Origin: a virus
DNA: 27,684 bases
Strand: one strand, 5' to 3'
IMG/VR virus record: IMGVR_UViG_3300013087_000003
Location: 1 to 27,684 of that record
The notes below the pieces were generated by a model, which was given only the letters and a program-made list of their open reading frames with translations, was not told where the DNA came from and did no database searches. Below are positions 971 to 27,684 of the stretch, piece after piece (positions within the stretch are counted from its first letter, which is position 1; every line of letters begins with the position of its first letter). Both the position numbers and the translations under genes were made by a program.

Positions 971-981
971 TTATTTCTCCT

Positions 982-3337: not shown

Positions 3338-3352
3338 TAGTTACTACCTTTC

Positions 3353-4873: not shown

Positions 4874-4876
4874 TTA

Positions 4877-6259: not shown

Positions 6260-6263
6260 AAAA

Positions 6264-6587: not shown

Positions 6588-6589
6588 AT

Positions 6590-6871: not shown

Positions 6872-7071
6872 TATTCCTCATCCTTTTCTATAAAATCTGG
6901 TGCTTCTAATTCCCAATCAGGAAGATGACGAACCATTAGTTCCCACGCTTCACCCTCCGTAAATCCCGCCTGAGCAAAAGAGTTATACAACTCATGCGCC
7001 TGATGTGCGTACTCTTGTAATGGCGTAAAAAAATCTAATAGTAGTTCTTCAGCTTTTTTCTTTTTAGCCAT
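6871..7071 (-). CDS. Small acidic/helical protein after the capsid gene
   Basis: 66 residues: MAKKKKAEELLLDFFTPLQE, then aromatic helix-forming text (YAHQAHELYNSFAQAGFTEG) and an acidic end (APDFIEKDEE). It has an excellent ribosome binding site (AAAGGAG, 5 bases before the ATG), placed directly after the strong hairpin that follows the capsid gene, so it can be translated efficiently even if transcription is reduced there. It is the first of five small genes between capsid and connector. The 'GFTEGEAWELMVRHL' segment resembles a short helical motif in other small phage proteins, but I cannot assign a function. Confidence 0.75.
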   Translation of the reverse strand: MAKKKKAEELLLDFFTPLQEYAHQAHELYNSFAQAGFTEGEAWELMVRHLPDWELEAPDFIEKDEE

Positions 7072-7085
7072 ATTTCTCCTTTTGT

Positions 7086-7113
7086 AAAGAGGGGTGGTTA
7101 CCCACCCCTCTTT
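7086..7113. terminator. Perfect 12-bp hairpin downstream of the capsid gene, T-run on the plus strand
   Basis: A perfect inverted repeat: left arm 7086-7097 (AAAGAGGGGTGG), loop 7098-7101, right arm 7102-7113. Read on the minus strand (the coding direction of the capsid gene) the loop is GTAA, a GNRA tetraloop, and the stem is followed by ACAAAAGG rather than a T-run. Read on the plus strand it is followed by ATTTTTT, a classical intrinsic terminator tail. It may partly terminate or protect the 3' end of the abundant capsid mRNA and also stop antisense transcription. The structure is certain; the direction of action is inferred. Confidence 0.75.
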
Positions 7114-7123
7114 ATTTTTTAAA

Positions 7124-8098: not shown

Positions 8099-8130
8099 GA
8101 TTTCCTTCTAATTAGGTTTACTGTGGACTA

Positions 8131-8580
8131 TCAGCTTTTGAGAAGGTTACTCAATTCCTCTGGCGAACTAGCGTTCGCGATACGAGAAGCCAAGTCTTGA
8201 CCCACGTATGGGTCAATGTCACCATTGTCAAAATCTGACATTCGCTCATATTCTTGAGCGTCGGGAGATTGCTCTCCCTCTTCAACGGCTTCGATACCAA
8301 AAGCATCGCCGTATTCATTTAACCATTCAGCTACCGCATCCTCATCGGCTTCGATTTCCTCTGGGATGAATGCTGCGATTTTTGGGTTGAGTCCAAAGTT
8401 TTCTAAGATTTCTCCAACAGATGCTTCGTGACTGTAGGCTGTAATCTCCTCAAGAATATCGTCTTGCTCTTTAATTTGTTTTGAAAGCCTGTCGATTTCT
8501 TTTCGAAGTTTTTTTACCAGGTCAGTACCGCTACCTGCGTCTTCATCTTCAAACTCGTACTCGTTATATTCTTCTGCCAT
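8131..8580 (-). CDS. Capsid scaffold protein
   Basis: 149 residues from the ATG at 8578-8580, chosen because GGGAG lies 7 bases upstream; a longer in-frame start at 8628 would add 16 residues without such a site. The protein is very acidic at its start (EEYNEYEFEDEDAG), then has a coiled-coil helix at about residues 20-46 (LVKKLRKEIDRLSKQIKEQD), an acidic centre and a C-terminal helix (SPEELSNLLKS). Acidic, coiled-coil proteins immediately upstream of the capsid gene act as internal scaffolds that shape the procapsid and then leave or are cleaved. The function is inferred from composition and position, which fit well. No protease gene is visible next to it. Confidence 0.8.
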   Translation of the reverse strand: MAEEYNEYEFEDEDAGSGTDLVKKLRKEIDRLSKQIKEQDDILEEITAYSHEASVGEILENFGLNPKIAAFIPEEIEADEDAVAEWLNEYGDAFGIEAVEEGEQSPDAQEYERMSDFDNGDIDPYVGQDLASRIANASSPEELSNLLKS

Positions 8581-8724
8581 TGTTTTCTCCCTATTAGTAG
8601 TTAAAACCCTCATCGGGTCCTGCACCACACGTACTCGTCAGCAGGGGTACTGATTCGTAGACGTGATGACTTCCAGGCTTATACACATCACCAGGGCTGG
8701 ACGGTCTGGGACGGATTCTGTTTG

Positions 8725-10395
8725 TTATACGTCAGGTCTTTTTGAGCGAGAACCTAGCGACGCTCTATTAAGAGCGCTTTGTTGCTGGAATTTTGCACGT
8801 TCTTTGCTTGCTAGTTTCTTAATCTTAACTCCAACATCTGCTCCACCAGCAAGTGCAAGTGCTTCACGAGTCAAATCTTCGGTTCCAGCGGTTTCGCCAT
8901 ATAGACCCATAAGTCTTTGGTAATCTTCTTGTTCGCGAACTGAGCTTTGGAATGCACGTTCAGCCGAATCGCCTTTACCAGCTTTAAGAATTTCTTCGGC
9001 AAAATCTTTACTGATTCCAGTTTGCATACCAGCGCGAGTAGCTGCGCCACCGATTTCAGAGGCTTGATATTTACGTTTTAACTCGTCAGAGGTGTATGTA
9101 AACCTAGAATCAATTGCACGGAATGCTTTATCTGGGTCAAGTAGGTAGGCAACCATGTCACCTTCTGACAAACCGTAATACTGCTTTAAAGAGTTTTTAA
9201 TGTTTTGGTCTGCATTTTGTAACGCTTGTTTAGCTAGATTTACACGAGCAGCAATCTCAGCGACAGAGGTTCCTAGCTCTCCAATAAACTTAGCAAAATC
9301 TTCTGGTTGGTCGTAGAAGTAACTAGGTAAGCCAGCCTCAGACATAATTTCCCTGTAAGCATCTTCGGTCTTAACGTATTCGGATGGGCTAAGTAACCTA
9401 TCTCCTGGTAGACCTTTGCCATCTGCCATACGTTTACGAATAATTTCATTGCCAGCGAATCTAGTTTTATAAGCATCGCTGTTATAGACAGTGTTTAAAA
9501 CCTGTGCTTCGGTAGGCATAATATTTTCTTCATACACTTTGTCCATAATATCCATTAAACTTTTTGAAAATTGTTTATCAAGACCAGCGTTTTCAAACAT
9601 CTTCATTGCTGAGTCACGAGCGCCAAGGTCTTTATAACTTTCAAGAACATTCCCAGTAGAGCCATCAGACATGACCTGAACAACTTCTACAATGCCACCT
9701 TTTTTACGTACGGTACGTGTTCCAACAACTTTTGGCTTAGCAGCTTCAATTGCTGCTGCGTTTTGCATTTTTGCTATTTGGTCGGTAAGCGCTTTAATTT
9801 GGTCCATAATTGCTTTTTGTGCAGCAGCATCTGGACCAGAACCGCCAGCGCCAGCACCTATACCAGTTGAAGTACCAGTTGAAGTACTAGTTGGAGTACC
9901 AGTTGAAGTACTAGTTGAAGTATCTGTTGAGGTACTAGTTGAAGTACCAGTTGAGGTACTAGTTGAAGTATCTGTTGAGGTACTAGTTGAAGTATCTGTT
10001 GAGGTACTAGTTGAAGTATCTGTTGAGGTACTAGTTGAAGTATCTGTTGAGGTACTAGTTGAAGTATCTGTTGGGGTATCTAAATTTCTTTCTGCTTCTA
10101 GCGCTTTTCGTAAAGCTTCTGCAGCCTGCTCCCTGGCAATTCGTGCTTCTTCTTGCGCTTCTGCTGCTTCAACTCGTGCAGGAGATTTATTGGTTTTAGG
10201 GTCCCTTGTATAATAAGGGTCAATTTTTGCAGCAAATACTTTTGAGACAGGTTGATTTGCTGATTGTGCATATTGCTGTGCTTGCGCTATTCTGCGCCGT
10301 TCGCGAGCATCTTCACCAGGGTCAAAATCAACCACTGGTCTTTGAGCAGCTTTCCTGGCTTCTAATATTGCTTCATAAAAACTATCTCTTGACAT
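8725..10395 (-). CDS. Internal/ejection-type virion protein with Thr/Ser/Asp octapeptide repeats
   Basis: 556 residues. Charged helical N-terminus (1-104, with 'ARERRRIAQAQQYAQ' and a coiled-coil-like stretch at about 75-103), then eight tandem octads of the form DTSTSTST or GTSTSTST at 110-173, a glycine/alanine hinge (about 178-187), and a long helical C-terminal half (190-556). The C-terminal part, with 'LSPSEYVKTEDAYREIMSEAG' and 'YYGLSEGDMVAYLLDPDKAF', resembles a family I associate with actinophage virion proteins, without an established function. It lies directly upstream of the scaffold. An internal or ejected protein is the best guess. Ribosome binding sequence is weak. The repeats are low complexity in DNA too. 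Confidence 0.7.
   Translation of the reverse strand: MSRDSFYEAILEARKAAQRPVVDFDPGEDARERRRIAQAQQYAQSANQPVSKVFAAKIDPYYTRDPKTNKSPARVEAAEAQEEARIAREQAAEALRKALEAERNLDTPTDTSTSTSTDTSTSTSTDTSTSTSTDTSTSTSTDTSTSTSTGTSTSTSTDTSTSTSTGTPTSTSTGTSTGIGAGAGGSGPDAAAQKAIMDQIKALTDQIAKMQNAAAIEAAKPKVVGTRTVRKKGGIVEVVQVMSDGSTGNVLESYKDLGARDSAMKMFENAGLDKQFSKSLMDIMDKVYEENIMPTEAQVLNTVYNSDAYKTRFAGNEIIRKRMADGKGLPGDRLLSPSEYVKTEDAYREIMSEAGLPSYFYDQPEDFAKFIGELGTSVAEIAARVNLAKQALQNADQNIKNSLKQYYGLSEGDMVAYLLDPDKAFRAIDSRFTYTSDELKRKYQASEIGGAATRAGMQTGISKDFAEEILKAGKGDSAERAFQSSVREQEDYQRLMGLYGETAGTEDLTREALALAGGADVGVKIKKLASKERAKFQQQSALNRASLGSRSKRPDV
9877..10068 (-). repeat. 24-bp coding minisatellite (8 units)
   Basis: Eight in-phase units of about 24 bp encode the octads of residues 110-173 of the 556-residue protein. 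On the plus strand the recurring core is GTTGAAGTATCTGTTGAGGT followed by ACTA. Central units are identical in DNA, the outer units carry substitutions (accagt for atctgt), which is the usual pattern of recent expansion in the middle of an array. Unit number probably changes by slippage without breaking the frame. Confidence 0.9.
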
Positions 10396-17454: not shown

Positions 17455-17608
17455 TTGGGATAGCCTCCTCTTTCGCCGTCAATTCCTCTAGCATTGCGTA
17501 TCGGTCATCGTCAGAATCAAACGGAAAACGCGCCAAATCCCATGCCAGCGGAGCCATGTCAAATCCAAGGTATTCAAGATTCTCTTCGAATTTCCTGAAT
17601 ATTTTCAT
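17438..17608 (-). CDS. Small 56-residue protein overlapping the giant gene start
   Basis: ATG at 17606-17608, stop at 17438-17440, 56 residues (MKIFRKFEENLEYLGFDMAP, then LAWDLARFPFDSDDDRYAML and an acidic tail). Its start overlaps the stop of the preceding gene (ATGA) and its end overlaps the GTG start of the giant gene by 17 bases, so the three genes form a translational relay and AGGAGG of the giant gene lies inside it. It is acidic and helical, with no recognised domain. The perfect fit of both junctions is the main evidence that it is real. Possible chaperone or regulator of giant-protein translation, but that is speculation. Confidence 0.7.
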   Translation of the reverse strand: MKIFRKFEENLEYLGFDMAPLAWDLARFPFDSDDDRYAMLEELTAKEEAIPSESMD

Positions 17609-18024
17609 TCTTGCTGACTCCGTAAGTATTTAACAAAAGCTTTCATTGTTCCCGAAGATTGTGGTGAATCTGCAAATTGCACCATTAATGGCAAGTATTT
17701 ACTTAGTTTCCCTAAGTCTTCTAATTGTGCATCAGCTTGTGATTTATTAAGCCCTAATATTTCACTACCTGGACCTGGAGTATCATCTACTCCAGCAGTA
17801 ACTAGCTCATCTGGTCTTTGTGTTGGTGCATTAAATGGAACGATGTTAGCCATCAGGTCGTTCATACTTGGTCTAGCTCCACCGCTTTTTGCCATAGGAG
17901 CCGACATCTGTTGATTCTGAAATTCCTTTTGCTCGCCATAGGCAGCATTAGGAAGGCGCTTTGCGCCTTGGCGGTCTGTGCGTTTTGTGTATGGACCAGG
18001 ACCTGCTGGCTGCATCGTTGACAT
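17605..18024 (-). CDS. Small virion-region protein, unknown function
   Basis: 139 residues. Disordered, basic and glutamine/proline-rich start (MSTMQPAGPGPYTKRTDRQG), then a region with 'MNDLMANIVPFNAPTQRPDE', and a helical C-terminus (LEDLGKLSKYLPLMVQFADS, MKAFVKYLRSQQE). It sits between the LysM protein (8 bases away) and the 56-residue gene (ATGA overlap). Start at 18024 is used because it follows the previous stop closely; an SD-like AGG is weak. No domain is recognised. Confidence 0.7.
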   Translation of the reverse strand: MSTMQPAGPGPYTKRTDRQGAKRLPNAAYGEQKEFQNQQMSAPMAKSGGARPSMNDLMANIVPFNAPTQRPDELVTAGVDDTPGPGSEILGLNKSQADAQLEDLGKLSKYLPLMVQFADSPQSSGTMKAFVKYLRSQQE

Positions 18025-18032
18025 TTATTAAC

Positions 18033-19469
18033 CTATTTCTTTTTAGGAATTTTTACGGTTGTTCCTGCCCAAATCATGCTACCTTGCTTGTATTTAGGAT
18101 TCTTAGCAAACTTCTTATTTGCTGCACGTACGTCAGCAAGGGAAACACCTGCAGCTTTAGCAATACCTGAAAGCGTATCACCTCTTTTGACTACGTAAAC
18201 ACCGCTTGGCTTAGAATCAGATGAACCGCCAGAGACAGATTTTGTTCTATCTCTTCCTGCTCGCACTGCGGTACGTCCACGTTCTGCAGCAGAACTGCTA
18301 CCAAACGCGGAACCCGAAGCGGTTTTAGTCTTTTTCTTCTCCCGCCTAATTAATTTATTAAGCTCATCCATACGTTCACGACGTGTTTGACCAACAGCAC
18401 CGAAAGTTGCAAGGTCAGCAAAATTGGATAGATTAGATTGCATCAACTTTCTGTTTGTATTAAATCGACCACCAACTGTTGCGTTTGCAGATTTCTTCCC
18501 TTGAGCCTTTGCTAACTTTTCTTCTAGGCGGTTGATTTCTTTCATATCTTTATAAACAGAACCTTTAGCAAGAGATACAATTTCAGCAGCTGCTGCTGCA
18601 CCTACTGCGCCTACTGCAAACCTTCTACCAAATTTAGCTAACTTACTGGCTTTCTTTGCTGCGCCAGCAGCTGCTGCCTTTGGCTTGGGCTTTGAACCTG
18701 TTGTAACTACAGTTCCTTTTGGACGAACCGCTACAGTGCCACTAGTTTTAGGTGCAGCAGTGGTTGTTTTGGCAACACCAGCCTTAGTTTTCTTTTGTAC
18801 AAACTTTGGCTTTGTGGTTCCTTTACCTGCTTTTTCTGGCTGTACGTTTGTAACACTTTGCACAGGTGCAGTTTTTGGTGTTGCTGTTGCGGGATTAGCG
18901 CCTGGTCTAGTAGCTTTCCAGTTTTTGCGCTCTTTTGGAGTCATATTCTTCCATGCAGCTTTATTAGCAGCAGACTTCTCTGCACGAGTCATCTTCTTTT
19001 CAGCCTTAAGTTTCTTTTCTAGTTCTCCACCTTTAGTTACTGGTGTATCAACTACTCTAAGAGGCTTTGTGCTACCAAACTTCTTGGTATTCTTAGCAAC
19101 TTCCTTGTCGGCAGCAGATTTAACTGCAGCTTTCTTAGTAGCCTTCTTAGCAGGTTTCTTTTTTGGCTTTTCATCATCATCTAAGGGATATTTACGTAAA
19201 GCCTCGGCTTTTGCTGCAGCACGGTCACGTGCAATACGTTCTTGTGCGGTTTCGGTAGGTTTTGAATATACACGCTCGCCAGTATCCGTGGTTATATAAC
19301 CGCGTTTAGCTTCTTGCTGGATTTCCCGAAGAATCTTTTGGTCTTCTGCAGAATACTTTACGGTTCTGTCTTTGACGACGGCTTTTCTTTTACCAGGAAA
19401 AGCTTTTTTAGCTTCTGCTTTAGCGTCTTTTCTAGCCTGGCGAAACTTCTTTGGTGTCTTCTTCGCCAT
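18033..19469 (-). CDS. Lysine-rich protein with C-terminal LysM domain
   Basis: 478 residues, extremely rich in Lys and Ala over the first ~290 (KKPKKKPAKKATKKAAVKSA), reminiscent of histone H1-like basic proteins. A hydrophobic segment lies near residue 290-310 (FAVGAVGAAAAAEIVSLAKG), then a coiled-coil stretch, and a LysM domain at about 424-474 (YVVKRGDTLSGIAKAAGV, then LADVRAAN and IWAGTTVKIP). LysM domains bind N-acetylglucosamine in peptidoglycan. The gene is next to portal and giant-protein genes, so it is likely a virion protein that touches the cell wall during entry rather than an endolysin, as no catalytic domain is seen. DNA binding by the basic part is plausible. Confident for LysM, moderate for role. 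Confidence 0.8.
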   Translation of the reverse strand: MAKKTPKKFRQARKDAKAEAKKAFPGKRKAVVKDRTVKYSAEDQKILREIQQEAKRGYITTDTGERVYSKPTETAQERIARDRAAAKAEALRKYPLDDDEKPKKKPAKKATKKAAVKSAADKEVAKNTKKFGSTKPLRVVDTPVTKGGELEKKLKAEKKMTRAEKSAANKAAWKNMTPKERKNWKATRPGANPATATPKTAPVQSVTNVQPEKAGKGTTKPKFVQKKTKAGVAKTTTAAPKTSGTVAVRPKGTVVTTGSKPKPKAAAAGAAKKASKLAKFGRRFAVGAVGAAAAAEIVSLAKGSVYKDMKEINRLEEKLAKAQGKKSANATVGGRFNTNRKLMQSNLSNFADLATFGAVGQTRRERMDELNKLIRREKKKTKTASGSAFGSSSAAERGRTAVRAGRDRTKSVSGGSSDSKPSGVYVVKRGDTLSGIAKAAGVSLADVRAANKKFAKNPKYKQGSMIWAGTTVKIPKKK

Positions 19470-19477
19470 GATTTTCC

Positions 19478-19627
19478 TTACTTAAGCTTGTTATTGTTGC
19501 CCTTGATACCTTTAGGTGTTGGGGCTTTTGCAACTTGTCCGAGTCCTACACCTTTGCCACCAGACTTCTTGCCTGCGTGACCTGGGTGAACAGGAGCCTT
19601 TGCTGCTTTACCTTGTCTTCCAATCAT
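19478..19627 (-). CDS. 49-residue basic Gly/Lys-rich protein
   Basis: A short gene with ATG at 19625-19627 and TAA at 19478-19480. The protein begins MIGRQGKAAKAPVHPGHAGK and ends GIKGNNNKLK; half of it is Lys, Gly and Ala. A strong ribosome binding site (AAGGAG, 6 bases upstream) and exact filling of the space between portal (ends 19640) and LysM gene (starts 19469) support it. The composition suggests an unstructured, nucleic-acid-binding or capsid-internal peptide. No family recognised. Confidence 0.7.
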   Translation of the reverse strand: MIGRQGKAAKAPVHPGHAGKKSGGKGVGLGQVAKAPTPKGIKGNNNKLK

Positions 19628-19639
19628 TTTTTCTCCTTA

Positions 19640-21397
19640 TTATGCTGGGATTTGTCGAGTTACTCGTCCTGCTAGAACAGGATTGCCTGAACCAGTTAGA
19701 CCTGCTAACAGTTCTTGCATTGCTGGTCTACCTTGTGGTGCTTGTGGTAGTTCGCCACCGCCCATAGGTTCTCCTGGTTGTGCCATATCTGGCAGTTCAG
19801 GGGTTTCTTCTTCTGCTGGTTCTGGCTTAAACGCTTTAGCTACAGCATCTTCAAGCGCTGTTCCCTTTTTACGTTCTTCTATAACTATTGCCATTTTTTC
19901 AACAACATCCATTGGGTCTTGTCCTTGCGTTACCATCATGGGTATTGCTTGAGCAAGGGATGCAATAGAAGTCTTTAGACTGTCACGCATCTCTTCAATG
20001 TCAATTGCTCGCTCTTCTTCTCCAGCATTGAGCGAAATTGGTAAATTGCGACGTAGCATTCCTCGTGAGATTAGCTTGTCGCCTCGTGCTTGTAGACCCC
20101 AAACCAGTGCGCGGTTAGGGTCAAGTCCTGCCATCAATCCATATTCAACGGTTACGCCATGGTTACCGTTAATGTCGTTTGATGGTTTATATCTTAATTT
20201 ATATGGAACACCATTGGCTGTTGCAGATACTTCACTAACCGTGTTAGCAAAAAATGCTTCATCGGTTGCAAACGCAATTGAGATTGCCTGACCAATTGCT
20301 TCACCAAGGATAGATTGAATAACTTTAATCTGTGAATCAAATCCAGCCATAAGCGCCTTAACGCCTTGACCAGTAACAATAGAACCTTCTGCCTGACCTG
20401 CACGTGCTTGTGGAAACCTGGTTCCTAGCTTTAACTCATCTGCAAGAATGTTGTTTTCGGCAAAGGCATATTGCGGTACATCTAAGTTTATGCGACGTAT
20501 TTTCTCAGGACTGTTCGAACGAATGACCGAATCAGGACCAACGGATAGCTGAGTAACATCAGTGGGAAGAGCAAGAGGAGCTTCAACAGACTTTTGAACA
20601 GCCTCCATAGTGAGCAAAGCAAGACGCGCTTTTGCTGCATACACTGGCAAAACATCGTCGAATGTCCCTCGGATTTCACCATCAAGCGAAGGGCGTTGAG
20701 CAACCGTAACTGGGACTCGACCAATCTTGTTTTGGCTTTGGGCAAGTACTACACCTCCGCGACTTGGTATAAACATTACATTACGGTTCTTATCCACCCA
20801 TCGGACAACCTCAAGCAATTCGTTCTCATTTGCTCTTTGTCCAAACGCACTGGTCTGTAAAATTTTATCTGCAACCTCAGGGAACTTGGCTGCTAAATCA
20901 CCAGCTTTGCGATAATATGAACGGCAGTAGACAGTTACTTCCCCGAATCTGTCCGTGTCGTAATAAGCACCCATGGAATTTTCGACATGGATATGCGGTC
21001 TTTTTTCCTTGAAGTTAGGCTCAACCCTAAATACACAAAATCCATAGGTTCCTAACTGGTCTGCGCCACGCAGTAGCTCTGTTCCAAGACGCGAAGATGC
21101 AACATAATAGTTTGCAATTTTTGTTCTTTTGTCAGCCTTGGTACGCTGGTTATCATCAAGGGACGAATCTCCAGCAGCTGTTATGGTAGGTAATACACCT
21201 GCCTGCTCAGAGACATCGCGAGCAACCACGTCAATAAGGTTGGCAATAATAGGCTTAGACCAGTTTCCCTCTGGGAATAAACCACGAAATACTTGGTCAG
21301 CATTACCTGCTCGGACCATGGCAACTTCACGCATACGTTTGTCGCGTTCAGCATTACGAGTTTTTATCTGCTCATAGGCATGTACAAGTTCTTTCAT
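19640..21397 (-). CDS. Portal protein
   Basis: 585 residues, placed directly after the terminase gene (2 bases apart), the usual portal position. Helical N-terminus (KELVHAYEQIKTRNAERDKR), then 'WSKPIIANLIDVVARDVSEQ', a beta core (GTYGFCVFRVEPNF, HIHVENSMGAYYDTDRFGEV) and long helices around residues 215-470 typical of the stem and crown (LALLTMEAVQKSVEAPLALP). The C-terminus is Pro/Glu/Gly-rich (EPAEEETPELPDMAQPGEPM). As the dodecameric portal it forms the DNA entry gate and head-tail connector. The length agrees with podoviral portals. No single diagnostic motif is visible, so the call leans on position, size and overall pattern, which agree well. Confidence 0.85.
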   Translation of the reverse strand: MKELVHAYEQIKTRNAERDKRMREVAMVRAGNADQVFRGLFPEGNWSKPIIANLIDVVARDVSEQAGVLPTITAAGDSSLDDNQRTKADKRTKIANYYVASSRLGTELLRGADQLGTYGFCVFRVEPNFKEKRPHIHVENSMGAYYDTDRFGEVTVYCRSYYRKAGDLAAKFPEVADKILQTSAFGQRANENELLEVVRWVDKNRNVMFIPSRGGVVLAQSQNKIGRVPVTVAQRPSLDGEIRGTFDDVLPVYAAKARLALLTMEAVQKSVEAPLALPTDVTQLSVGPDSVIRSNSPEKIRRINLDVPQYAFAENNILADELKLGTRFPQARAGQAEGSIVTGQGVKALMAGFDSQIKVIQSILGEAIGQAISIAFATDEAFFANTVSEVSATANGVPYKLRYKPSNDINGNHGVTVEYGLMAGLDPNRALVWGLQARGDKLISRGMLRRNLPISLNAGEEERAIDIEEMRDSLKTSIASLAQAIPMMVTQGQDPMDVVEKMAIVIEERKKGTALEDAVAKAFKPEPAEEETPELPDMAQPGEPMGGGELPQAPQGRPAMQELLAGLTGSGNPVLAGRVTRQIPA

Positions 21398-21399
21398 TA

Positions 21400-23289
21400 T
21401 TACAATCTCACTATTCGCTGCGCTGCAGCTAAGTCATCTAAGTTAATGATGTATCTATCCTCAATCGCCTTAGAAGGCGTAAATTGATTTTTCATAAAAT
21501 TGGGTACGTTCGAAGCGGTAAGCAATACATCGCGGGCTACGATTTCACAGAACCATAGTGCCATTACAGCATCCATCTTGAGTTTCTTACCCTGCACCCC
21601 TGGTTGCCAAACAACCAGTTGTTCTATTAATTTTTTTACATGTTCATTACGTGAAGAATCTGGCAACTCAATCATATGGTCACCAGCATGCTTTAAGTTA
21701 TTATTATTACCATCACGTTTAATGATAGTTCCAAACAACGGAGCCAGAGAAGCTACACCAAACTCTGGGTCTTGCTTATTGTTACCTGTGTAGTGTGGGC
21801 GGTAGTTGATACCGCGAGTAGACAAGAAGTTTCTAATCTCCTCATCCTTTGTCAAGAAAAGCTGAAAAGCATTCGACTCAACAATAACCGTATGTGGTTT
21901 GTAGGCATCGGTCCATTCTCGAATCAGAGTTCTGATTGCTGCAGGTGTGGGGCTGCTCATGACGTAAACGTCCATGACATAGCGCTTTTGTGTTCTGCGG
22001 TCAACCGCGTAGGCAACTGCTGCGGTGTCACCAGACATAGCAGGGTCAATACCAATGATTCGGTAAAAGTTTTGCGAGTTATCAGGGTGACCAGCAGCGC
22101 CTGCAACCAGCGCACCCGATTTTCTCATTCCATTAACTGCGCCTCTAACGCACATCGGGTCGAAGATTGCATTCTCTGCGATATCGAGATTCTGGTAGAC
22201 CAAACTCCATTTGGATGGACCAGCCTCGTTACGGACCGCTGTTAGACGCGGTCCTGTCCATCGGTCAAAGTAACCATTCTCATCTGGAATATCATTTTCA
22301 ATAAGAGGTTGTTCTGACTTTCCCCAGAGAGTTTTCCAATCCTCTGGATTGTCTGCGTATTCCAATACGGCAGGCATGGACAAATAGGACCACGGTACGA
22401 TTCCGTCCGTGTAATGCTGCGGGTTGCGTAATTCTTTATATAGGTCTACTGCAGAAACTCTGGTTCCAACGACAAGAAGCTGCCCTCCGCCTGGTGGAAG
22501 ACGGCTGGCAACTTCTTGGCGAATCCATTCTTGTTGTTTAGCCCATTCCGCTGAGTTGGAAAGCGTAACAACGTCATCAAGTACGATTAAGTCAGCGCGA
22601 GCACCGTAGATTTGCCCACCCATACCAATTGCTTCAATTGTTGGGTCTTTAGAATCCGACTCGCGGATATCTGCGCCTAAGTAAATCTTGTTTGCCGACC
22701 ATTGGTCGGAGGTTGCTTTATACCCATCGTTAGGACCAAACCCAGCTTGTAGGTCAGCATAACGTGGATGAGTCAATCTTTGTTTAATACCGTAGAGAAA
22801 CTTCTTAGCTTGCTCTTGAGTTTTAGAAATTAAGATTACGTTTATGTTTGGGTTTTGAACTACGCGGTAAGTCACGTAGTTTATGGTGATTGTCATGGTC
22901 TTGGCGTGGTTAGGAGGGATATTTACCAAGAGGCGGGATAATCCCGCCGACCCCTTCTCGTAGGTCATTGCTGGATGTAACCAGCGGGGTTCTTTGCCTT
23001 CCAACATGTCAACCACGTTGAGCATATGGTCCCAGACTTTAGTAGCCAAGTAAGCCTCAGAGAAGCTCGCGAAGTCTTTTAGACCAGAGCGAGCTTCGCC
23101 AGCCAAGTCAGAGGTTCTTAACCGAGCATTGTCTATATATGCAGCGAAGCCCTCGGCTTCGCGCCGTTGGGTGTCATACCAAGAACGACTTCTACCAATA
23201 ACTTTTAAGGCATCGGTAATGGTGCGCCCTTGGCGCACCAAATCGATTAGTTCTTTCCTGGCTTCTTCAGGGGTTAAATTTCTTTCCAA
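21400..23289 (-). CDS. Terminase large subunit with N-terminal helix-turn-helix
   Basis: 629 residues, start TTG at 23287-23289 with GGAG 6 bases upstream. Residues 1-60 hold a helix-turn-helix-like part (RTITDALKVIGRSRSWYDTQ, 22-41) of the kind found in small terminase subunits. The ATPase follows: Walker A variant NIPPNHAKTM (123-132), Walker B LIVLDDV (234-240, D238/D239) and the coupling motif VVGTR (273-277). The nuclease (RNase H fold) has candidate acidic residues D415 (IGIDPA), E471 (VIVES) and D573 (MDAVMALW). It cuts and pumps phage DNA through the portal. No separate small subunit gene is seen. The call is confident. Confidence 0.95.
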   Translation of the reverse strand: MERNLTPEEARKELIDLVRQGRTITDALKVIGRSRSWYDTQRREAEGFAAYIDNARLRTSDLAGEARSGLKDFASFSEAYLATKVWDHMLNVVDMLEGKEPRWLHPAMTYEKGSAGLSRLLVNIPPNHAKTMTITINYVTYRVVQNPNINVILISKTQEQAKKFLYGIKQRLTHPRYADLQAGFGPNDGYKATSDQWSANKIYLGADIRESDSKDPTIEAIGMGGQIYGARADLIVLDDVVTLSNSAEWAKQQEWIRQEVASRLPPGGGQLLVVGTRVSAVDLYKELRNPQHYTDGIVPWSYLSMPAVLEYADNPEDWKTLWGKSEQPLIENDIPDENGYFDRWTGPRLTAVRNEAGPSKWSLVYQNLDIAENAIFDPMCVRGAVNGMRKSGALVAGAAGHPDNSQNFYRIIGIDPAMSGDTAAVAYAVDRRTQKRYVMDVYVMSSPTPAAIRTLIREWTDAYKPHTVIVESNAFQLFLTKDEEIRNFLSTRGINYRPHYTGNNKQDPEFGVASLAPLFGTIIKRDGNNNNLKHAGDHMIELPDSSRNEHVKKLIEQLVVWQPGVQGKKLKMDAVMALWFCEIVARDVLLTASNVPNFMKNQFTPSKAIEDRYIINLDDLAAAQRIVRL

Positions 23290-23303
23290 GTCATCTCCAG
23301 TAC

Positions 23304-23409
23304 CTGTAGGGGTCTACAGGGGGATAGACAGAGGTATCCCCACTTTATTTTTTTACCAAGGTTAGGCAGGCAAAAGCCTGCCTTCTACGGCTTCGTGGAA
23401 CTCAGCCGT
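23304..23409 (-). promoter_or_regulatory. Cluster of four hairpins in the terminase leader
   Basis: Four perfect inverted repeats lie within 106 bases just upstream of the terminase start: 23304-23319 (CTGTAG arms, 4-base loop), 23320-23341 (GGGGATA arms, 8-base loop), 23365-23382 (GGCAGGC arms, 4-base loop) and 23387-23409 (ACGGCT arms, 11-base loop). The first two abut without a spare base. They could fold in leader RNA and control access to the weak TTG start, or act as the DNA site recognised by the packaging enzyme. The structure is directly visible; the function is inferred. Confidence 0.6.
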
Positions 23410-23529
23410 TACACTTATATAGGGGACTAGAGCATGGGCGTGTTTCAAGAGCAAAATAAAACTTTTTTTCTTGGTTATATAAAAGTGCTGGTCAGAGTGG
23501 GTTTTCTGGTGAAAATATTTTAGCTGATA

Positions 23530-23550
23530 GGGGGGGTGGGGGTGGGGGGG
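23530..23550 (+). repeat. G-run tract, possible G-quadruplex
   Basis: Three runs of seven, five and seven G separated by single T. The runs are long enough to supply the four G-tracts of an intramolecular quadruplex with very short loops. It lies in the non-coding control region. Homopolymers of this length are also prone to sequencing errors, so exact run lengths are uncertain. Confidence 0.75.
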
Positions 23551-23588
23551 CAGTTAAAAAACCCTGGGGTTCGATACAGCGCGGACGC

Positions 23589-23612
23589 AAAAAAAGGGGC
23601 AGAGGTTGCCCC
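23589..23612 (-). terminator. Intrinsic terminator, minus strand
   Basis: On the minus strand a 6-bp stem GGGGCA/TGCCCC (23607-23612 with 23596-23601, loop 23602-23606) is followed directly by seven T (plus-strand A at 23589-23595). It lies downstream of the leftward 88-residue gene and would keep its transcript from running into the terminase leader. Confidence 0.8.
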
Positions 23613-23646
23613 CTGCCCCAGTAAAAACACGCTCAAATTTGACAAA

Positions 23647-23675
23647 ACCGCCCCGCATGTGGTATGCGGAGCGGT
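23647..23675 (-). terminator. Second terminator-like hairpin, minus strand
   Basis: Arms ACCGC-C-CCGCAT (23647-23658) and ATGCGG-A-GCGGT (23664-23675) pair over 11 positions with one C/A mismatch around a 5-base loop. On the minus strand the stem ends in GCGGTTTTGTC, a short T-run. It is located 38 bases after the stop of the 88-residue gene, ahead of the stronger terminator. Confidence 0.6.
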
Positions 23676-23713
23676 AGTGTTTGCTGACTATCTATAGGCG
23701 CGCCCGCGTATCT

Positions 23714-23980
23714 CTACGCGTTGACCCGCTTGATGACTACGCGGAGGGAATTGAGCACGATTGACAACTCGCGCACACCGCGATTTTCGACTACGTCGAA
23801 CACGATTCCGACATGCTTACCGACTGCCACGATATCGCCATGCCATGCGTCTACTAGACGCGTCAACTCGAAATCGGGAACGTGCTCTAACGTCGGCACG
23901 TTGTAAAACTCTTTCACTGCCCTGACCTCTTCGCGTAGGTTCACGAGTAGGTCATCCTTCGTCCATGCTGTGCCTTCCAT
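23714..23980 (-). CDS. Lone leftward 88-residue protein, unknown function, possible regulator
   Basis: 88 residues (MEGTAWTKDDLLVNLREEVR, then HVPDFELTRLVDAWHGDIVA, KHVGIVFDVVENRGVREL and 'RVVIKRVNA'). It starts at an ATG with AAGGAG 8 bases upstream. Helical first half, beta-rich second half, no cysteine. It is the only leftward gene right of the terminase and has its own promoter-like sequence (24031-24060), an inverted repeat just downstream of it, and tandem terminators behind it. An independent unit between early and late blocks would suit a switch regulator or immunity-type protein, but no DNA-binding motif is evident and I do not recognise a family. Confidence 0.7.
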   Translation of the reverse strand: MEGTAWTKDDLLVNLREEVRAVKEFYNVPTLEHVPDFELTRLVDAWHGDIVAVGKHVGIVFDVVENRGVRELSIVLNSLRVVIKRVNA

Positions 23981-24002
23981 GCTGTTGCTCCTTGTTCAAT
24001 CA

Positions 24003-24019
24003 CTGAACCCAGCGTTCAG
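24003..24019. promoter_or_regulatory. Operator-like inverted repeat
   Basis: CTGAAC at 24003-24008 and GTTCAG at 24014-24019 form a perfect 6-bp inverted repeat with a 5-base spacer. It begins about 11 bases downstream of the -10 box of the leftward promoter, between the transcription start and the ribosome binding site. A repressor site or a short leader hairpin are both possible. Confidence 0.55.
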
Positions 24020-24030
24020 CGATAGGGAGC

Positions 24031-24060
24031 ATTATCTCACGACCATGCCCCTCATGTCAA
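24031..24060 (-). promoter_or_regulatory. Sigma70-like promoter for the 88-residue gene
   Basis: On the minus strand a perfect -35 TTGACA (24055-24060) is separated by 18 bases from the -10 GATAAT (24031-24036, five of six matching TATAAT). Transcription would start near 24024 and reach the ATG at 23980 after about 45 bases. This is the best-formed promoter in the window. Confidence 0.75.
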
Positions 24061-24114
24061 TTCCAGCCGTCTGACTGAGCGTAAATGCGGCGTGTCTAAC
24101 GTAACCCATCACAT

Positions 24115-24154
24115 CATGACACATCACACCCGATACGCCCCAGACATGACACAT
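24115..24154. repeat. Direct repeats CATGACACAT spaced 30 bp
   Basis: Exact copies at 24115-24124 and 24145-24154. The 30-bp period is close to three helical turns, so bound proteins would face the same side. They sit midway between the divergent transcription units, where a repressor or activator would work. Confidence 0.6.
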
Positions 24155-24156
24155 GA

Positions 24157-24166
24157 AATACGTATT
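24157..24166. promoter_or_regulatory. Palindrome AATACGTATT
   Basis: A perfect 10-bp palindrome 3 bases after the second direct repeat and 15 bases before the TTGACA of the rightward unit. It is a possible half of an operator, but a palindrome of this length also occurs by chance. Confidence 0.35.
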
Positions 24167-24180
24167 ACGCATATGGGTAA

Positions 24181-24204
24181 TTGACAGCTCGCGCATGTTC
24201 TTTT
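24181..24204 (+). promoter_or_regulatory. Candidate early rightward promoter, first copy
   Basis: A perfect TTGACA at 24181-24186 is followed after 4 bases by GCGCATGTTCTTTT. The same 14-base element with one change follows a TTGGCT upstream of the gene product 88 homologue. No good TATAAT is present at 16-18 bases, so this may be a phage-specific or activator-dependent promoter rather than a plain sigma70 one. Confidence 0.45.
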
Positions 24205-24212
24205 CATTGAAT

Positions 24213-24281
24213 AGCAAATCGAAGATTTGCTTAGATAAATGTCGCCAATCGGAAACACCGAGACGGCAGAAAGGAAGCACC
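24213..24281 (+). promoter_or_regulatory. Structured start-associated leader A
   Basis: Hairpin with 8-bp arms AGCAAATC (24213-24220) and GATTTGCT (24224-24231), triloop GAA. Then a small TCGG/CCGA stem and a conserved CGGCAGAAAGGAA ribosome binding block, with the ATG 50 bases after the hairpin. Closely matches leader B; the stem differs from it by a compensated A-T to C-G pair. Confidence 0.7.
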
Positions 24282-24446
24282 ATGCCAAAAGGAATCACCA
24301 ATCCCCAACGCAAGAACGGCAAGGCTTGGAAGAAGAAGCCAAAAGTCCAACGCAAGACAGGCAAGACAATCGGAGGCTACTCGCTACTCAAACTCGTAAA
24401 GCGAGCAGACAAACGCGCACCATTCACAGGTAACGCAATCAGATAG
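24282..24446 (+). CDS. Small very basic protein, first rightward gene
   Basis: 54 residues from the ATG at 24282 (MPKGITNPQRKNGKAWKKKP, then KVQRKTGKTIGGYSLLKLVK). Longer in-frame starts upstream would run through leader A and are rejected; AAGGAAG precedes the chosen ATG. Nearly every third residue is Lys or Arg in the first 35, followed by a short amphipathic stretch. The composition suggests RNA or DNA binding. It opens the rightward cluster, and its stop codon TAG lies at the foot of the next leader hairpin, so the end of this gene and leader B are physically joined. No recognised domain. Confidence 0.7.
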   Translation: MPKGITNPQRKNGKAWKKKPKVQRKTGKTIGGYSLLKLVKRADKRAPFTGNAIR

Positions 24447-24512
24447 CACATCGAAGATGTGCTTAAAAGATAGACCGCTAGTCGGAGATACCGACGGCAG
24501 AAGGGAAACACC
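24445..24512 (+). promoter_or_regulatory. Structured start-associated leader B
   Basis: Hairpin with 8-bp arms AGCACATC (24445-24452) and GATGTGCT (24456-24463), triloop GAA. Then a GTCGG/CCGAC stem (5-base loop) and the block CGGCAGAAGGGAAACACC directly before the ATG at 24513. Spacing from hairpin to ATG is 49 bases, against 50 in leader A. Confidence 0.7.
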
Positions 24513-24761
24513 ATGAGAAAAGTAGCAACCCAAACCCTCAGCGCCACAGTCAAGAACGGCGTTGTTCATGTAAGCAAGGCGGATGACAAGCGAGTATTCG
24601 CGAAAGTCCGTATCACCACCAACACCGCCAAATCTTCAAAGAAGATTCAGGCAATCCTTGACTCGTTCAAGGCATACCCCAACTTCGTAACACTCTTAGG
24701 CGAGATTCAGAAAGTCGAGCCAAAGGCTTACCTCACACTTAAGGGAGGCGTATCAGCATGA
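24513..24761 (+). CDS. Small hypothetical early protein
   Basis: 82 residues (MRKVATQTLSATVKNGVVHV, then VFAKVRITTNTAKSSKKIQA and a helix 'ILDSFKAYPNFVTLLGEIQK'). Alternating beta strands in the first half and helix in the second, moderately basic. It has the strong leader B and ribosome binding site GAAGGGAA, and its stop overlaps the next start (ATGA). There is no recognised domain, but the coupling and leader support a real and well-expressed early gene. Confidence 0.75.
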   Translation: MRKVATQTLSATVKNGVVHVSKADDKRVFAKVRITTNTAKSSKKIQAILDSFKAYPNFVTLLGEIQKVEPKAYLTLKGGVSA

Positions 24762-24952
24762 GTGAGGACACCACACTCTCCATCATAATGCTTTGCCTAT
24801 TGGCAATGACATTCATAACTGGAGCCCTTATGGGCTCATTACGTCGCGACACCGAGTGGCGCAGGTTCTTAGCAGAACAGAGTTCTGCTGATGATACTCA
24901 TTGGGACACGACAATTCGTGAAACCGAGTCGAAATCCATATGGAACGACTAG
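24758..24952 (+). CDS. Small membrane protein
   Basis: 64 residues. One hydrophobic segment at about 6-28 (LSIIMLCLLAMTFITGALMG) with acidic residues before it and SLRRD after it, so the positive-inside rule places the C-terminal part, with its many acidic and Trp residues, in the cytoplasm. Start overlaps the preceding stop (ATGA) after GGGAGG. An early membrane protein could act in superinfection exclusion or host takeover, but this is only a suggestion from topology and position. It overlaps the tiny following gene by 13 bases. Confidence 0.7.
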   Translation: MSEDTTLSIIMLCLLAMTFITGALMGSLRRDTEWRRFLAEQSSADDTHWDTTIRETESKSIWND

Positions 24953-25026
24953 ACCAAGCAACGACAGAGGCAGTCATCACCTGCGGTGACTGCCTGCGTC
25001 CCGAATGTAAAGGATGTGAATACTGA
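24940..25026 (+). CDS. Tiny 28-residue cysteine-rich protein
   Basis: Codons from the ATG at 24940 give MERLDQATTEAVITCGDCLR PECKGCEY and a TGA at 25024-25026. The four cysteines are spaced C-x2-C-x4-C-x2-C, enough to hold one zinc ion in a minimal knuckle. It starts inside the end of the membrane-protein gene and its stop overlaps the next ATG by one base (TGATG), as its neighbours do. The ribosome binding site is weak, so coupling would be needed. Being real is supported by the junctions and the cysteine pattern; the role is unknown. Confidence 0.55.
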   Translation: MERLDQATTEAVITCGDCLRPECKGCEY

Positions 25027-25178
25027 TGATGGGTTATACAACCGACGACATTGACAAGTTCCAAGGAACTTTAATGAATGTCTACGCCAGTGGCGTATGT
25101 AATAGCAAGCAAGCCGAAGTCCTAAAAGAAATCAAAGATTTCTTTGATGGGCTACTAGTGGAAGGAAGAATCCAATGA
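25026..25178 (+). CDS. Small 50-residue early protein
   Basis: 50 residues (MMGYTTDDIDKFQGTLMNVY, then ASGVCNSKQAEVLKEIKDFF and DGLLVEGRIQ). Two ATG codons in a row at 25026 and 25029 offer alternative starts; GGATGTGAA lies upstream. Its TGA overlaps the start of the following gene by four bases (ATGA). It looks helical and mildly acidic. No recognised family, though the compact overlaps on both sides argue for a gene. Confidence 0.6.
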   Translation: MMGYTTDDIDKFQGTLMNVYASGVCNSKQAEVLKEIKDFFDGLLVEGRIQ

Positions 25179-25474
25179 GCAATTTTGACGCAAATGATTT
25201 CGCACATGACTGGCTATTGGTCATTGAAAATGACCATGAGTCATGGACACGTCTCGTAGATGATGTCAAGTCTATGGACTGTGACCGAATCGCAGTGACC
25301 ACGTATCTCCGCGAAGAGTGGGATGTGCTGGTCGACCAAATGGCAAGCGCTGTCGAAGACAAGGTGTCAGATGTAGGCGCTTTACTGCTACGCCAGATGT
25401 TATTAACTGGCGACTATCCATTCCATCTCATTGCTAATCATGTGATTAGCAATATCAAAGAAACGGAGGTATAA
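25175..25474 (+). CDS. Hypothetical early protein, 99 residues
   Basis: Acidic, helical protein (MSNFDANDFAHDWLLVIEND, then LVDDVKSMDCDRIAVTTYLR and LLLRQMLLTGDYPFHLIANH). The start overlaps the preceding stop, and GGAAGGAAGAA provides a ribosome binding site. It ends two bases before the next gene. 'REEWDVLVDQMASAVED' looks like an amphipathic helix. I recognise no domain; it is one of the string of small genes typical of early regions in actinophages. Confidence 0.7.
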   Translation: MSNFDANDFAHDWLLVIENDHESWTRLVDDVKSMDCDRIAVTTYLREEWDVLVDQMASAVEDKVSDVGALLLRQMLLTGDYPFHLIANHVISNIKETEV

Positions 25475-25476
25475 AC

Positions 25477-25823
25477 ATGGGAGCAAGGGTGAATTTCGTG
25501 TTCACACAGTTTGAGAACTCACCAAAGGTGGTGCTGTATTCACACTGGGGCGAGACCACATGGGAGTATGACCTGGCTTGTGCTCTGTCTGTAGCAGAGC
25601 CACGTTGGGACGACCCTACTTATGGAACTCGTATCGTCATCTCCAATTTAATTGGAGAACATGGAAGTCAGAGACTGGCTTCGGTATCTACGCAACCACA
25701 GACATGACAGATGCCTGGGACTTGTGCGTAGAGATTGACTTTGTCAATAAGACTGTTGACAGAGTTCCTTTTAATACATTCACAAAATATCAAATAGCGA
25801 AAGGAGAATACCAAAATGCCTAA
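25477..25823 (+). pseudogene. Actinophage 'MGARVNFVF' family gene broken by a one-base frameshift
   Basis: From 25477 the frame gives MGARVNFVFTQFENSPKVVL YSHWGETTWEYDLACALSVA and reads well to IGEHG, then loses sense (SQRLASVSTQPQT) and stops at 25707. In the -1 frame the text resumes exactly there as WKSETGFGIYATTDMTDAWD and continues to a stop at 25823, which overlaps the next ATG by 8 bases as its neighbours do. Homologues that I remember read IGEHW.SETGFGIYA, so one base, most simply a T in CATTGG, is missing near 25662. Intact length would be about 115 residues. Function is unknown. Either a real mutation or an assembly error; no canonical slippery heptamer is present. Confidence 0.8.
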
Positions 25824-26034
25824 GTATCTCGTATGGCAAAAGCGCGAGTTCATGTTCTACCAGGAGGTAGAAGCACCAAGCAAGAAGCAAGCAGTCGAGC
25901 TCGCGCTAGAGCAAGGTGACTGGGAACAAGACCAGAACTATGCCGAAATGTTCTACGAAGTAGAACCAATACCAAATGAACTACAACCTGAGGTCGATGA
26001 CCTCATCAAATCAAAGGAGGAAAGCAATGCCTAA
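25816..26034 (+). CDS. Small acidic early protein
   Basis: 72 residues (MPKYLVWQKREFMFYQEVEA, then PSKKQAVELALEQGDWEQDQ and an acidic tail). The pattern of a short strand, 'EVEAPSKKQAVELA' and helix resembles small DpnD/PcfM-like proteins in which a strand-helix unit ends in conserved Ala positions, but the match is loose. The ATG overlaps the previous stop (ATGCCTAA) with AAGGAGA upstream, and its own stop overlaps the next gene in the same way. Function unknown. Confidence 0.7.
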   Translation: MPKYLVWQKREFMFYQEVEAPSKKQAVELALEQGDWEQDQNYAEMFYEVEPIPNELQPEVDDLIKSKEESNA

Positions 26035-26608
26035 TTGGGTAATGAACACGCTGTCTATCACTGGCACACCAGAGGTGATAGCACAGATGAAGGCGCAGTT
26101 ATCTGCGCCATACGAAGTCAGTCACTACGACTGGCGTAGTGAAGAGATGGAAATTGTAAAGGTTGAACAACCTTTTAGTTTCTGGAACATCATCAAGCCA
26201 ACAGACTTAGAGGCTTACTATGATGCGAAGGACAAGCCACAAACAGGAGCAGACCACTGGTATTCCTGGAACATCCGCAACTGGGGGACTAAGTGGGATG
26301 TCCGCGAAGTCCAAGCCAGCGAGTCACCCGAATCTTTAGGATTCGGATTCGATACCGCATGGGCTCCGCCAACCGAGGCAATCGACAAACTTGCTGAGCA
26401 ATACCCAACCGCATCCATCGAGCTCGCATATACGGAAGAGCAAGGATGGGGTGGGGCTATTGAATGGGAAGATGGAACTGGTTGCGAAACCGATTCATAT
26501 GAATATAAATGCTGGAACTGCGACGAGAAGTTTCAGTCATACGAAGAGGCAGAGTTCGACGAAGAGTCGGGCGAACATCTATGTAAGGAGGAAACACATG
26601 GGAAGTAA
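26027..26608 (+). CDS. YubB/DUF1281-like protein with C-terminal zinc ribbon-like part
   Basis: 193 residues from the ATG at 26027, which has AAAGGAGG 7 bases upstream and gives the family start MPNWVMNTLSITG. An in-frame start at 25976 lies inside the previous gene and is rejected. Family hallmarks: FWNIIKPTD (52-60), WNIRNWGTKWDV (81-92), FGFDTAWAPP (106-115), and a final strand pair around 131-147. This is a ferredoxin-like fold known from plasmids and phages (YubB/DUF1281), with no proven activity. Unusual is the added tail (about 153-193) with C162-x2-C165 and further cysteines C153 and C186, possibly a zinc site. Overlaps both neighbours. Confidence 0.85.
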   Translation: MPNWVMNTLSITGTPEVIAQMKAQLSAPYEVSHYDWRSEEMEIVKVEQPFSFWNIIKPTDLEAYYDAKDKPQTGADHWYSWNIRNWGTKWDVREVQASESPESLGFGFDTAWAPPTEAIDKLAEQYPTASIELAYTEEQGWGGAIEWEDGTGCETDSYEYKCWNCDEKFQSYEEAEFDEESGEHLCKEETHGK

Positions 26609-26855
26609 CACATCGAAAGACCTAGCAGAGAATGTCATTGACATTCGCACATCAATCGCAATCCAGTTGCGAGGTAATCATTATCCGCCAGTCCCATTGT
26701 CCATGGTCGAGCCATGTATAGAAGCCATCTATGCCTGCTCGGACGAGGACTACGACAAACAGATAACACTCCCAGAGGGAGTGACATGGAAAGGCAAGAC
26801 GACTGCGCCAGCATGGGCGATAGTCGAAGGACATCACCTAGAGCCTTGGCTGTAG
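26598..26855 (+). CDS. Conserved 85-residue actinophage protein
   Basis: 85 residues from the ATG at 26598 (MGSNTSKDLAENVIDIRTSI, then NHYPPVPLSMVEPCIEAIYA and ITLPEGVTWKGKTTAPAWAI). 'YPPVPLSMVEPCIEAI' and 'LPEGVTWKGKTTAPAWAIVEGHHLEPWL' match a small family widespread in actinobacteriophages. Its function is unknown. The ATG overlaps the YubB-like stop by 11 bases with AAGGAGG upstream. A longer in-frame start (26391) would overlap most of the preceding gene. Its TAG lies at the start of the promoter-like element for the next gene. Confidence 0.8.
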   Translation: MGSNTSKDLAENVIDIRTSIAIQLRGNHYPPVPLSMVEPCIEAIYACSDEDYDKQITLPEGVTWKGKTTAPAWAIVEGHHLEPWL

Positions 26856-26927
26856 CGCGTGTTCTTTTAGCACATCTTTAGATGTGCTGATAAATAGCAA
26901 CGGCAAAACTCAACGAAAGGAGCAGTC
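26846..26927 (+). promoter_or_regulatory. Candidate promoter and structured leader C of the gene product 88 homologue
   Basis: TTGGCT (26846-26851), 3 bases, then GCGCGTGTTCTTTT (26855-26868), the same 14-base element as at 24191 with one change. It is followed directly by a hairpin AGCACATC (26869-26876), loop TTTA, GATGTGCT (26881-26888). ACGGCAAAA and AAAGGAG precede the ATG at 26928, 39 bases after the hairpin. Arms are identical to leader B. Confidence 0.6.
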
Positions 26928-27635
26928 ATGCCGAAACTCAAGCGGTCACATGACCGCAAGGTAACCAACCTAGCAACGCCGAATGGCAAGCGGTCAGCAA
27001 TCGCTAACACATTCGGTCTGCCTAGTGGCAAGCAATACTCATGCCCCTATGCCACCAGTATCTGCGAAAAGATTTGCTACGCAGGGAAACTGGAGAAGAT
27101 GTATACCTCGGTTCGTGAAGTGTTACTTCACAACTGGAATGCCCTACGTGATGCCGATAGGTATGACATGTGGGCAATGCTCGACACCATGATTCTGGAT
27201 TTCAAATCAGAATGCGACACCAAAGGTGTCGAGAAACTATTCCGTATCCATTGGGATGGCGACTTCTTCAACGACCAATACACATGGGCGTGGAAGGTAG
27301 TCATCGAGAACCATCCCGACATACAGTTCTGGGTGTACACACGTAACCCAGACGCAGCTCGTGCGTTACGAGATATTCCCAATCTCTCGCTGTATTACTC
27401 TGCAGATGCAGAGAACTGGGAGTTCGCACCGCAAGGTGTGAAGATTGCCTACCTCGCTGACACTTTCAGTGATGGTAAGCGAATCATACTAGCAATGACA
27501 GGTAAAGCGGGAGCCTCATGTCCCGAACAACTCAAGCGCATCCCACTCATCTCCGAAAAGGGTGGAGCCTGTGCGGTATGCCGTCTCTGTGTAGATGGTA
27601 AGTCCGACATTCGATTCAGTATCACCAAACGATAG
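26928..27635 (+). CDS. Gene product 88 family protein, possible Fe-S enzyme
   Basis: 235 residues. It opens MPKLKRSHDRKVTNLATPNG and has eight cysteines: C39-x6-C46-x3-C50 (in CPYATSICEKICYAGK), C96, C198 and C215-x2-C218-x2-C221. The core FRIHWDGDFFNDQYTWAW, then IQFWVYTRNPDAARALRDI, is the diagnostic region of the mycobacteriophage gene product 88 family (Pfam GP88). Arrangement of a CYA-ending cysteine motif, 'D-F' strand and '(Y/T)TRNP' resembles the DUF5131 (Gp37/Gp68) radical-SAM-like phage proteins. Fe-S binding is inferred; the activity is unknown. Own leader C and ribosome binding site AAAGGAG. Family confident, chemistry speculative. Confidence 0.85.
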   Translation: MPKLKRSHDRKVTNLATPNGKRSAIANTFGLPSGKQYSCPYATSICEKICYAGKLEKMYTSVREVLLHNWNALRDADRYDMWAMLDTMILDFKSECDTKGVEKLFRIHWDGDFFNDQYTWAWKVVIENHPDIQFWVYTRNPDAARALRDIPNLSLYYSADAENWEFAPQGVKIAYLADTFSDGKRIILAMTGKAGASCPEQLKRIPLISEKGGACAVCRLCVDGKSDIRFSITKR

Positions 27636-27645
27636 GAGCAAACAT

Positions 27646-27684
27646 ATGGAAACAGAAACAGTAACAGGAACAGAGTCACCCAAA
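27646..27684 (+). CDS. Start of next gene, cut by the right edge
   Basis: ATG at 27646 with AGGAG 9 bases upstream gives METETVTGTESPK and continues open to the end of the window. It follows the gene product 88 stop by 10 bases. Too little is present for any assignment. Confidence 0.5.
   Translation, partial: METETVTGTESPK

Follow-up and report, generated by a model that had tools for sequence, protein, structure and literature searches.

Covarying hairpin leaders and a hairpin-rich, presumably early operon in a clade of freshwater phages

The viral DNA considered here (hereafter the window) is the entire IMG/VR record IMGVR_UViG_3300013087_000003, with a length of 27,684 base pairs (bp). 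Its minus strand carries the terminase, portal and capsid genes, and its plus strand, from position 24282, a rightward operon of small genes that is presumably early, a designation taken from the gene layout. Three genes of this operon are each preceded by a leader with a short perfect hairpin, referred to as leaders A, B and C (Table 1). Such leaders are found in one clade of ~41.7-kilobase (kb) freshwater (lake) phages of bacteria; the finding is real, specific to this clade, and richer than first described.

The three hairpins lie where the original prediction had placed them, with 50 nucleotides (nt) between hairpin end and ATG for leader A (ATG at 24282), 49 nt for B (24513) and 39 nt for C (26928). 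As had been stated, A and B have a GAA loop closed by a C-G pair. The loop of C is TTTA. A pattern search of the window with three mismatches allowed recovers A and B only, a recurrence beyond chance (expected 0.10; none of 100 shuffles reaches two). The RNA folding z-scores of leaders A, B and C are -2.3, -4.7 and -4.5, respectively. A covariance model (R1) matches leader A at 24208-24242 (E = 1.8e-7; leader A is in the training set), leader B (E = 6.9e-8) and leader C (E = 7.8e-6). Matches of R1 to its own training sequences are circular; informative are the matches at homologous places in whole genomes and the absence of sites in three outgroup phages. The second small stem claimed for A and B also folds, and that of leader A is homologous in relatives, with changed sequence. 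As a general feature of the leaders the second stem was rejected, as RNAalifold does not call it and it is clear only in A/B-type leaders. Single folds also show an outer stem that encloses the hairpin; this stem was rejected after a comparison with swapped flanks. The segment between hairpin and start codon is weakly structured on average (mean z = -0.5), and the predicted folds of A and B leave the ribosome-binding site free. At the leaders, the covariance models of Rfam 15 match nothing up to E 5. The leaders also lack the G+C-rich stem directly followed by a T-run that marks an intrinsic terminator; the 3' flank reads TTATATATAG.

Relatives were gathered with the proteins encoded by gene B (58 viral loci) and gp88 (80 viral loci). 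A hairpin precedes the start codon in nearly all B homologues and in most gp88 homologues of the clade, and its stem is varied (GCAGAAC, GCAAATC, GCACATC, GCAGACC, GCACAGC, GCATAGC, GCAAAGC, ACAGATC and more). Among 149 distinct leaders the 7-bp stem is perfectly Watson-Crick throughout, and an alignment of 42 distinct leaders has 294 of 294 pair cells in Watson-Crick pairing. The compensatory change from A-T in leader A to C-G in B and C, on which selection for structure had been proposed, is real, and the relatives add many more: both sides are changed in 60 cells of the 42-leader alignment, compared to 16.8 after shuffling. Stem pairs 4 and 6 take all four pair types, pairs 2 and 3 are invariant and pair 5 almost so. 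When the partners are slid out of register, pairing falls to 22-42%. A conserved (A/G)ATA box stands before the hairpin; TTATATATAG is conserved after it, the block behind the stem being A/U-rich and TATATA-like. On the mRNA strand the loop is of the (A/G)NA type in 139 distinct leaders and of the complementary type in 9; about 1/8 of the leaders have 4-nt loops. The start codon follows 24-73 nt after the hairpin, mostly 32-53. We note that the leaders of three relatives (G012, G014 and G015) combine the same stem with either GAA or its reverse complement TTC in the loop, as though the hairpin had been inverted as a whole.

By the covariance model the window has 3 sites and each complete relative 4-5, bearing out the expectation of further covarying copies. 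All sites are on the strand of the early genes and precede genes of the rightward operon, within its first ~5 kb, and hence the element is not phage-wide as had been supposed. The phages E7, F5 and Kumquat have no sites. The gene behind the first leader differs by subgroup and encodes either an MRKVAT-type or an MDALYW-type protein; the leader is therefore tied less to one gene than to a place in the operon. A pattern scan of IMG/VR DNA places the hairpin-forming copies in this clade, and matches that form no hairpin looked like chance. In genomes of GTDB the motif gives only chance matches, one unrelated hairpin and a repeat in Pseudanabaena, and therefore no host link for the clade. The latter, in a Pseudanabaena metagenome-assembled genome (L260-L261, L265-L270, L273), is an unrelated dispersed repeat containing AAGATAGCAGAGCGAAGCTCTGC that is probably a small mobile element.

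The leaders are part of a larger pattern. Perfect hairpins (stem of at least 7 bp, loop of 3-5 nt; raw counts that may include a hairpin twice, at two loop lengths) number 53 in the window, compared to 5.4 in dinucleotide shuffles. They are concentrated in the early operon (~6.5 kb), mainly within genes, and the array comprises positions 24200-27684 of the window together with the homologous ~7 kb in the relatives G001-G020. The same peak is found in 16 near-complete relatives in the first ~7 kb beside the terminase, and the density drops at the end of the rightward operon. The densest 5 kb hold 13-38 hairpins per genome of the clade versus 2-8 in 25 other contigs and phages; the G+C-rich Kumquat reaches 22. 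The early coding sequence contains 191 hairpins versus 12.6 in codon-shuffled controls (~15x), which preserve protein and codon use. The late genes on the minus strand show a milder excess (42 versus 9.2 codon-shuffled, 4.6x; G002-G019) that has no strand bias. The three related leaders of the original prediction thus stand, but as members of a hairpin array that spans the operon, and treating them as isolated elements took too narrow a view.

The coding hairpins carry a signature of the mRNA strand. In ten genomes, 8-bp early hairpins exceed shuffles 45x when perfect and 10x with one G.T on the mRNA strand, compared to 3.7x with one A.C and 3.9x with another mismatch. G.T is thus enriched above A.C and the other mismatches, so that on the mRNA strand a wobble behaves as a pair; masking the leaders leaves G.T at 75 and A.C at 44 distinct sites. 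Early genes also fold better in sense (z = -3.3) than in antisense (z = -2.2), the sense strand being the better one in 85 of 104 genes (p = 3e-10), and the late genes tested show no such difference. Both lines of evidence point to the mRNA as the level of action of the coding hairpins. AAA or GAA loops, preferred in the leaders, occur in 25 coding hairpins versus 5.5 expected, and the preference common to both groups is RAA on the mRNA strand with C-G closing.

All 41 distinct gp88 genes of the clade contain 2-6 perfect hairpins each, and 18 homologues outside the clade contain none, a difference that could partly be due to composition (G+C of 0.40 in the outgroup versus 0.48 in the clade). 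Composition does not explain the covariation: at one codon 40 of the 41 genes have a hairpin, with stems that include GTGAAGT/ACTTCAC, GTAAGAGA/TCTCTTAC and GTGAAGGAG/CTCCTTCAC, and stems are conserved across synonymous changes and covary at the same codons.

Table 1. Leaders, genes and coding hairpins of the rightward operon (positions in the window).
Feature	Position	Strand	Description	Basis
Leader hairpin A	24213-24231	+	8-bp stem AGCAAATC/GATTTGCT, GAA loop; before gene A	
Second stem of leader A	24244-24267	+	TCGG/CCGA, outer GCC/GGC	RNA folding
Gene A	24282-24446	+	54 amino acids (aa), no Pfam or PHROGs match; stop TAG touches hairpin B	
Leader hairpin B	24445-24463	+	8-bp stem AGCACATC/GATGTGCT, GAA loop; before gene B	
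Second stem of leader B	24477-24498	+	GTCGG/CCGAC, with a 3-bp extension	folding; relatives compared
Gene B	24513-24761	+	82 aa, function unassigned; conserved in 58 viral loci	
Coding hairpin in gene B	24631-24647	+		hairpin count
Coding hairpin	24871-24889	+	AGCAGAAC-AGA-GTTCTGCT; leader-like stem within gene	R1, E 0.05
Coding hairpin	25125-25145	+	9 bp, AAA loop	hairpin count
Coding hairpin	25218-25236	+	8 bp, GAA loop	hairpin count
Coding hairpin	25430-25453	+	10 bp	hairpin count
Coding hairpin	25640-25658	+	8 bp	hairpin count
Coding hairpin	25855-25872	+	7 bp	hairpin count
Coding hairpin	25950-25966	+	GAA loop	hairpin count
Coding hairpin	25989-26005	+	7 bp	hairpin count
Coding hairpin	26092-26109	+	7 bp	hairpin count
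Coding hairpin	26122-26142	+	8 bp	hairpin count
Coding hairpin	26158-26175	+	7 bp	hairpin count
Coding hairpin	26328-26346	+	7 bp	hairpin count
Coding hairpin	26630-26646	+		identical sequence at homologous place in relative G012
Coding hairpin	26767-26783	+	7 bp	hairpin count
Leader hairpin C	26869-26888	+	stem AGCACATC/GATGTGCT, TTTA loop; before gp88	
Gene C (gp88)	26928-27635	+	235 aa, GP88 family (PF17338)	E 9e-53
gp88 coding hairpin	27115-27131	+	GTGAAGT-GTT-ACTTCAC	hairpin at this codon in 40/41 clade homologues
gp88 coding hairpin	27215-27231	+	CGACACC-AAA-GGTGTCG	stems covary in relatives

The window overlaps with a near-identical record, IMGVR_UViG_3300025283_000003 (G022). Positions 1-10048 correspond to 17558-27605 of G022 (99.99% identity) and positions 24166-27684 to 1-3520 (99.97%); the two records are joined at both ends and therefore imply a circular phage genome of ~41.7 kb. 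A search for near DNA matches among cultured phages found none. By structural genes the nearest cultured phages include E7 and F5 (terminase 45%, portal 40%, helicase 40%) as well as Streptomyces phages such as Kumquat. E7 and F5 are phages of 'Candidatus Planktophila' (PMC10202952). Compared to G022, the window has a 1-base deletion at 25662, either an assembly error or a real frameshift, which cuts the 115-aa gene at 25477 to 76 aa. Short internal repeats at 9861-10082, in the gene at 8725-10395, give multiple matches against G022. Directly after the capsid gene, a perfect 13-bp hairpin followed by a T-run (7085-7114) looks like a terminator or a processing hairpin.

In our reading, leaders A, B and C act in cis, as hairpins of the mRNA, and would stabilise and insulate early translation units; we give this reading a probability of about one half. 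That the leaders act as RNA, and on stability or translation, is what we infer from the array as a whole: because the leaders have their loop preference in common with the coding hairpins, they can be read as its untranslated members, conserved in sequence and kept in the rightward transcript. Each has a stem of 7-8 bp and a loop of 3-4 nt, usually flanked by the (A/G)ATA box and the A/U-rich block, and stands upstream of a ribosome-binding site at which a gene begins its own translation unit. There the hairpin would most likely keep the leader from pairing with the Shine-Dalgarno region, and would protect or separate segments of the mRNA against ribonucleases, resulting in independent expression and a longer life of early translation units. 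In a variant of this mechanism, a processing site would lie beside the stem. Several observations weigh against this proposal. No leader stem contains a G.U pair, which RNA stems usually tolerate; the conserved stem positions and the adjoining TATATA-like block suggest recognition rather than plain stability; the flanks of a hairpin pair with each other no better than swapped flanks; and the relatives compared are not independent samples.

The absence of wobble makes a promoter of DNA-hairpin type the best rival, albeit an unlikely one. In the promoters for the virion RNA polymerase of phage N4, conserved bases of a 7-bp stem are read and the others need only pair, and the G-N-A loop is on the template strand (PMC4496689). 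Here, likewise, an inverted repeat extruded as a DNA hairpin would be recognised by a polymerase, and transcripts would begin a few bases 3' of the repeat, within or behind the A/T-rich block that follows the stem. The leaders resemble these promoters in the 7-bp stem with fixed and free-but-paired positions, in the (A/G)NA loop of 3 nt, and in the few copies of the same orientation before early genes; the wobble-free, strictly Watson-Crick leaders together with the fixed stem bases are the strongest point for this alternative. They differ in that the loop is on the other strand and that 4-nt loops are tolerated. Furthermore, no candidate RNA polymerase was found: searches with a virion protein of 1639 aa gave no PDB match below E 0.3 and no Pfam match above the cut-off, and phage F5 has a homologue of this protein (22% identity), yet no leaders.

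More doubtful still are promoters for the host RNA polymerase or a phage sigma factor, with (A/G)ATA and TATATA as -35 and -10 elements and the hairpin in the spacer. Both flanks are conserved, and the clade encodes a sigma-K-like factor (in relative G002, L138-L140, on the minus strand, ~8.7-9.3 kb from the terminase start), but there is no reason for a spacer to covary as a hairpin. To judge by the sequence, the -35 and -10 elements match poorly, and a spacing of 19-20 is long. A TTGACA at 24181, upstream of leader A, could serve this leader instead; across relatives, the alignment upstream of the first leader is too divergent to judge a host promoter. It is improbable that the hairpins are a mutational by-product, in which template switching at quasi-palindromes makes and repairs perfect stems without selection on RNA. 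The perfect stems, the GAA/TTC loop flips on the same stem and the unbiased excess in late genes fit such a process; the G.U and sense-strand bias of the early operon, the fall in density at its end, the conserved position and flanks of the leaders and the stems kept across synonymous changes do not. Operators, at which a phage repressor or activator would bind dyad-symmetric DNA, fit the palindromic form, the several copies and the conserved half-site RCAnAnC, but are likewise improbable, because pairs 4 and 6 remain complementary through all four bases, which a dimer reading half-sites does not require, and the half-site spacing changes between 3 and 4 bp.

The hairpin-packed operon suggests selection for a folded early mRNA. 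We tentatively propose, as a possibility short of even odds, that evolution has given the clade an early mRNA armoured with hairpins along its whole length, by a perfect hairpin every ~150-200 nt of coding sequence and by the dedicated leader hairpins of several translation units. Such armour might aid early gene expression in general or the resistance to RNA degradation by the host. If true, this strategy is undescribed for DNA phages in the literature searched: within the partial coverage of that search, no operon-wide hairpin array was described for any double-stranded DNA phage. It is uncommon for a functional cis-element in phage leaders to be supported by strong covariation, and here dozens of natural variants are available for tests. 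The hairpins in coding sequence suggest that the codons of a DNA virus can be shaped for the folding of its early message, which raises the question which effect of ribonucleases, ribosomes or defence selects for such folding, in a clade distantly related to phages of the most abundant freshwater actinobacteria.

Among known systems, the start-associated sequences (SAS) and extended SAS (ESAS) of cluster K mycobacteriophages are repeated short elements with inverted repeats before some non-structural genes, nearly all in one orientation; the ESAS consists of imperfect 17-bp inverted repeats whose changes give no support to RNA pairing, and adjoins a 13-bp GGGATAGGAGCCC (PMC3203893). The leaders are similar as repeated inverted-repeat elements of one orientation just 5' of a subset of genes. 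They differ, as the original prediction had held, in sequence, since GGGATAGGAGCCC is absent from leaders A, B and C and from a leader alignment, and in their stems, which are perfect and covarying instead of ESAS-type imperfect repeats. RNA viruses have genome-scale ordered RNA structure that is pervasive within coding RNA. The array shares this pervasive structure in coding RNA, but it is concentrated in a single operon in the mRNA of a double-stranded DNA phage and has separate perfect hairpins as its units. Bacterial and phage transcripts have intercistronic and 5' mRNA hairpins with a role in stability or processing, and like these, the leader hairpins stand beside an A/U-rich stretch between cistrons of a polycistronic message. 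Unlike them, the leaders form a conserved, covarying sequence family with several copies per operon in a new clade of phages.

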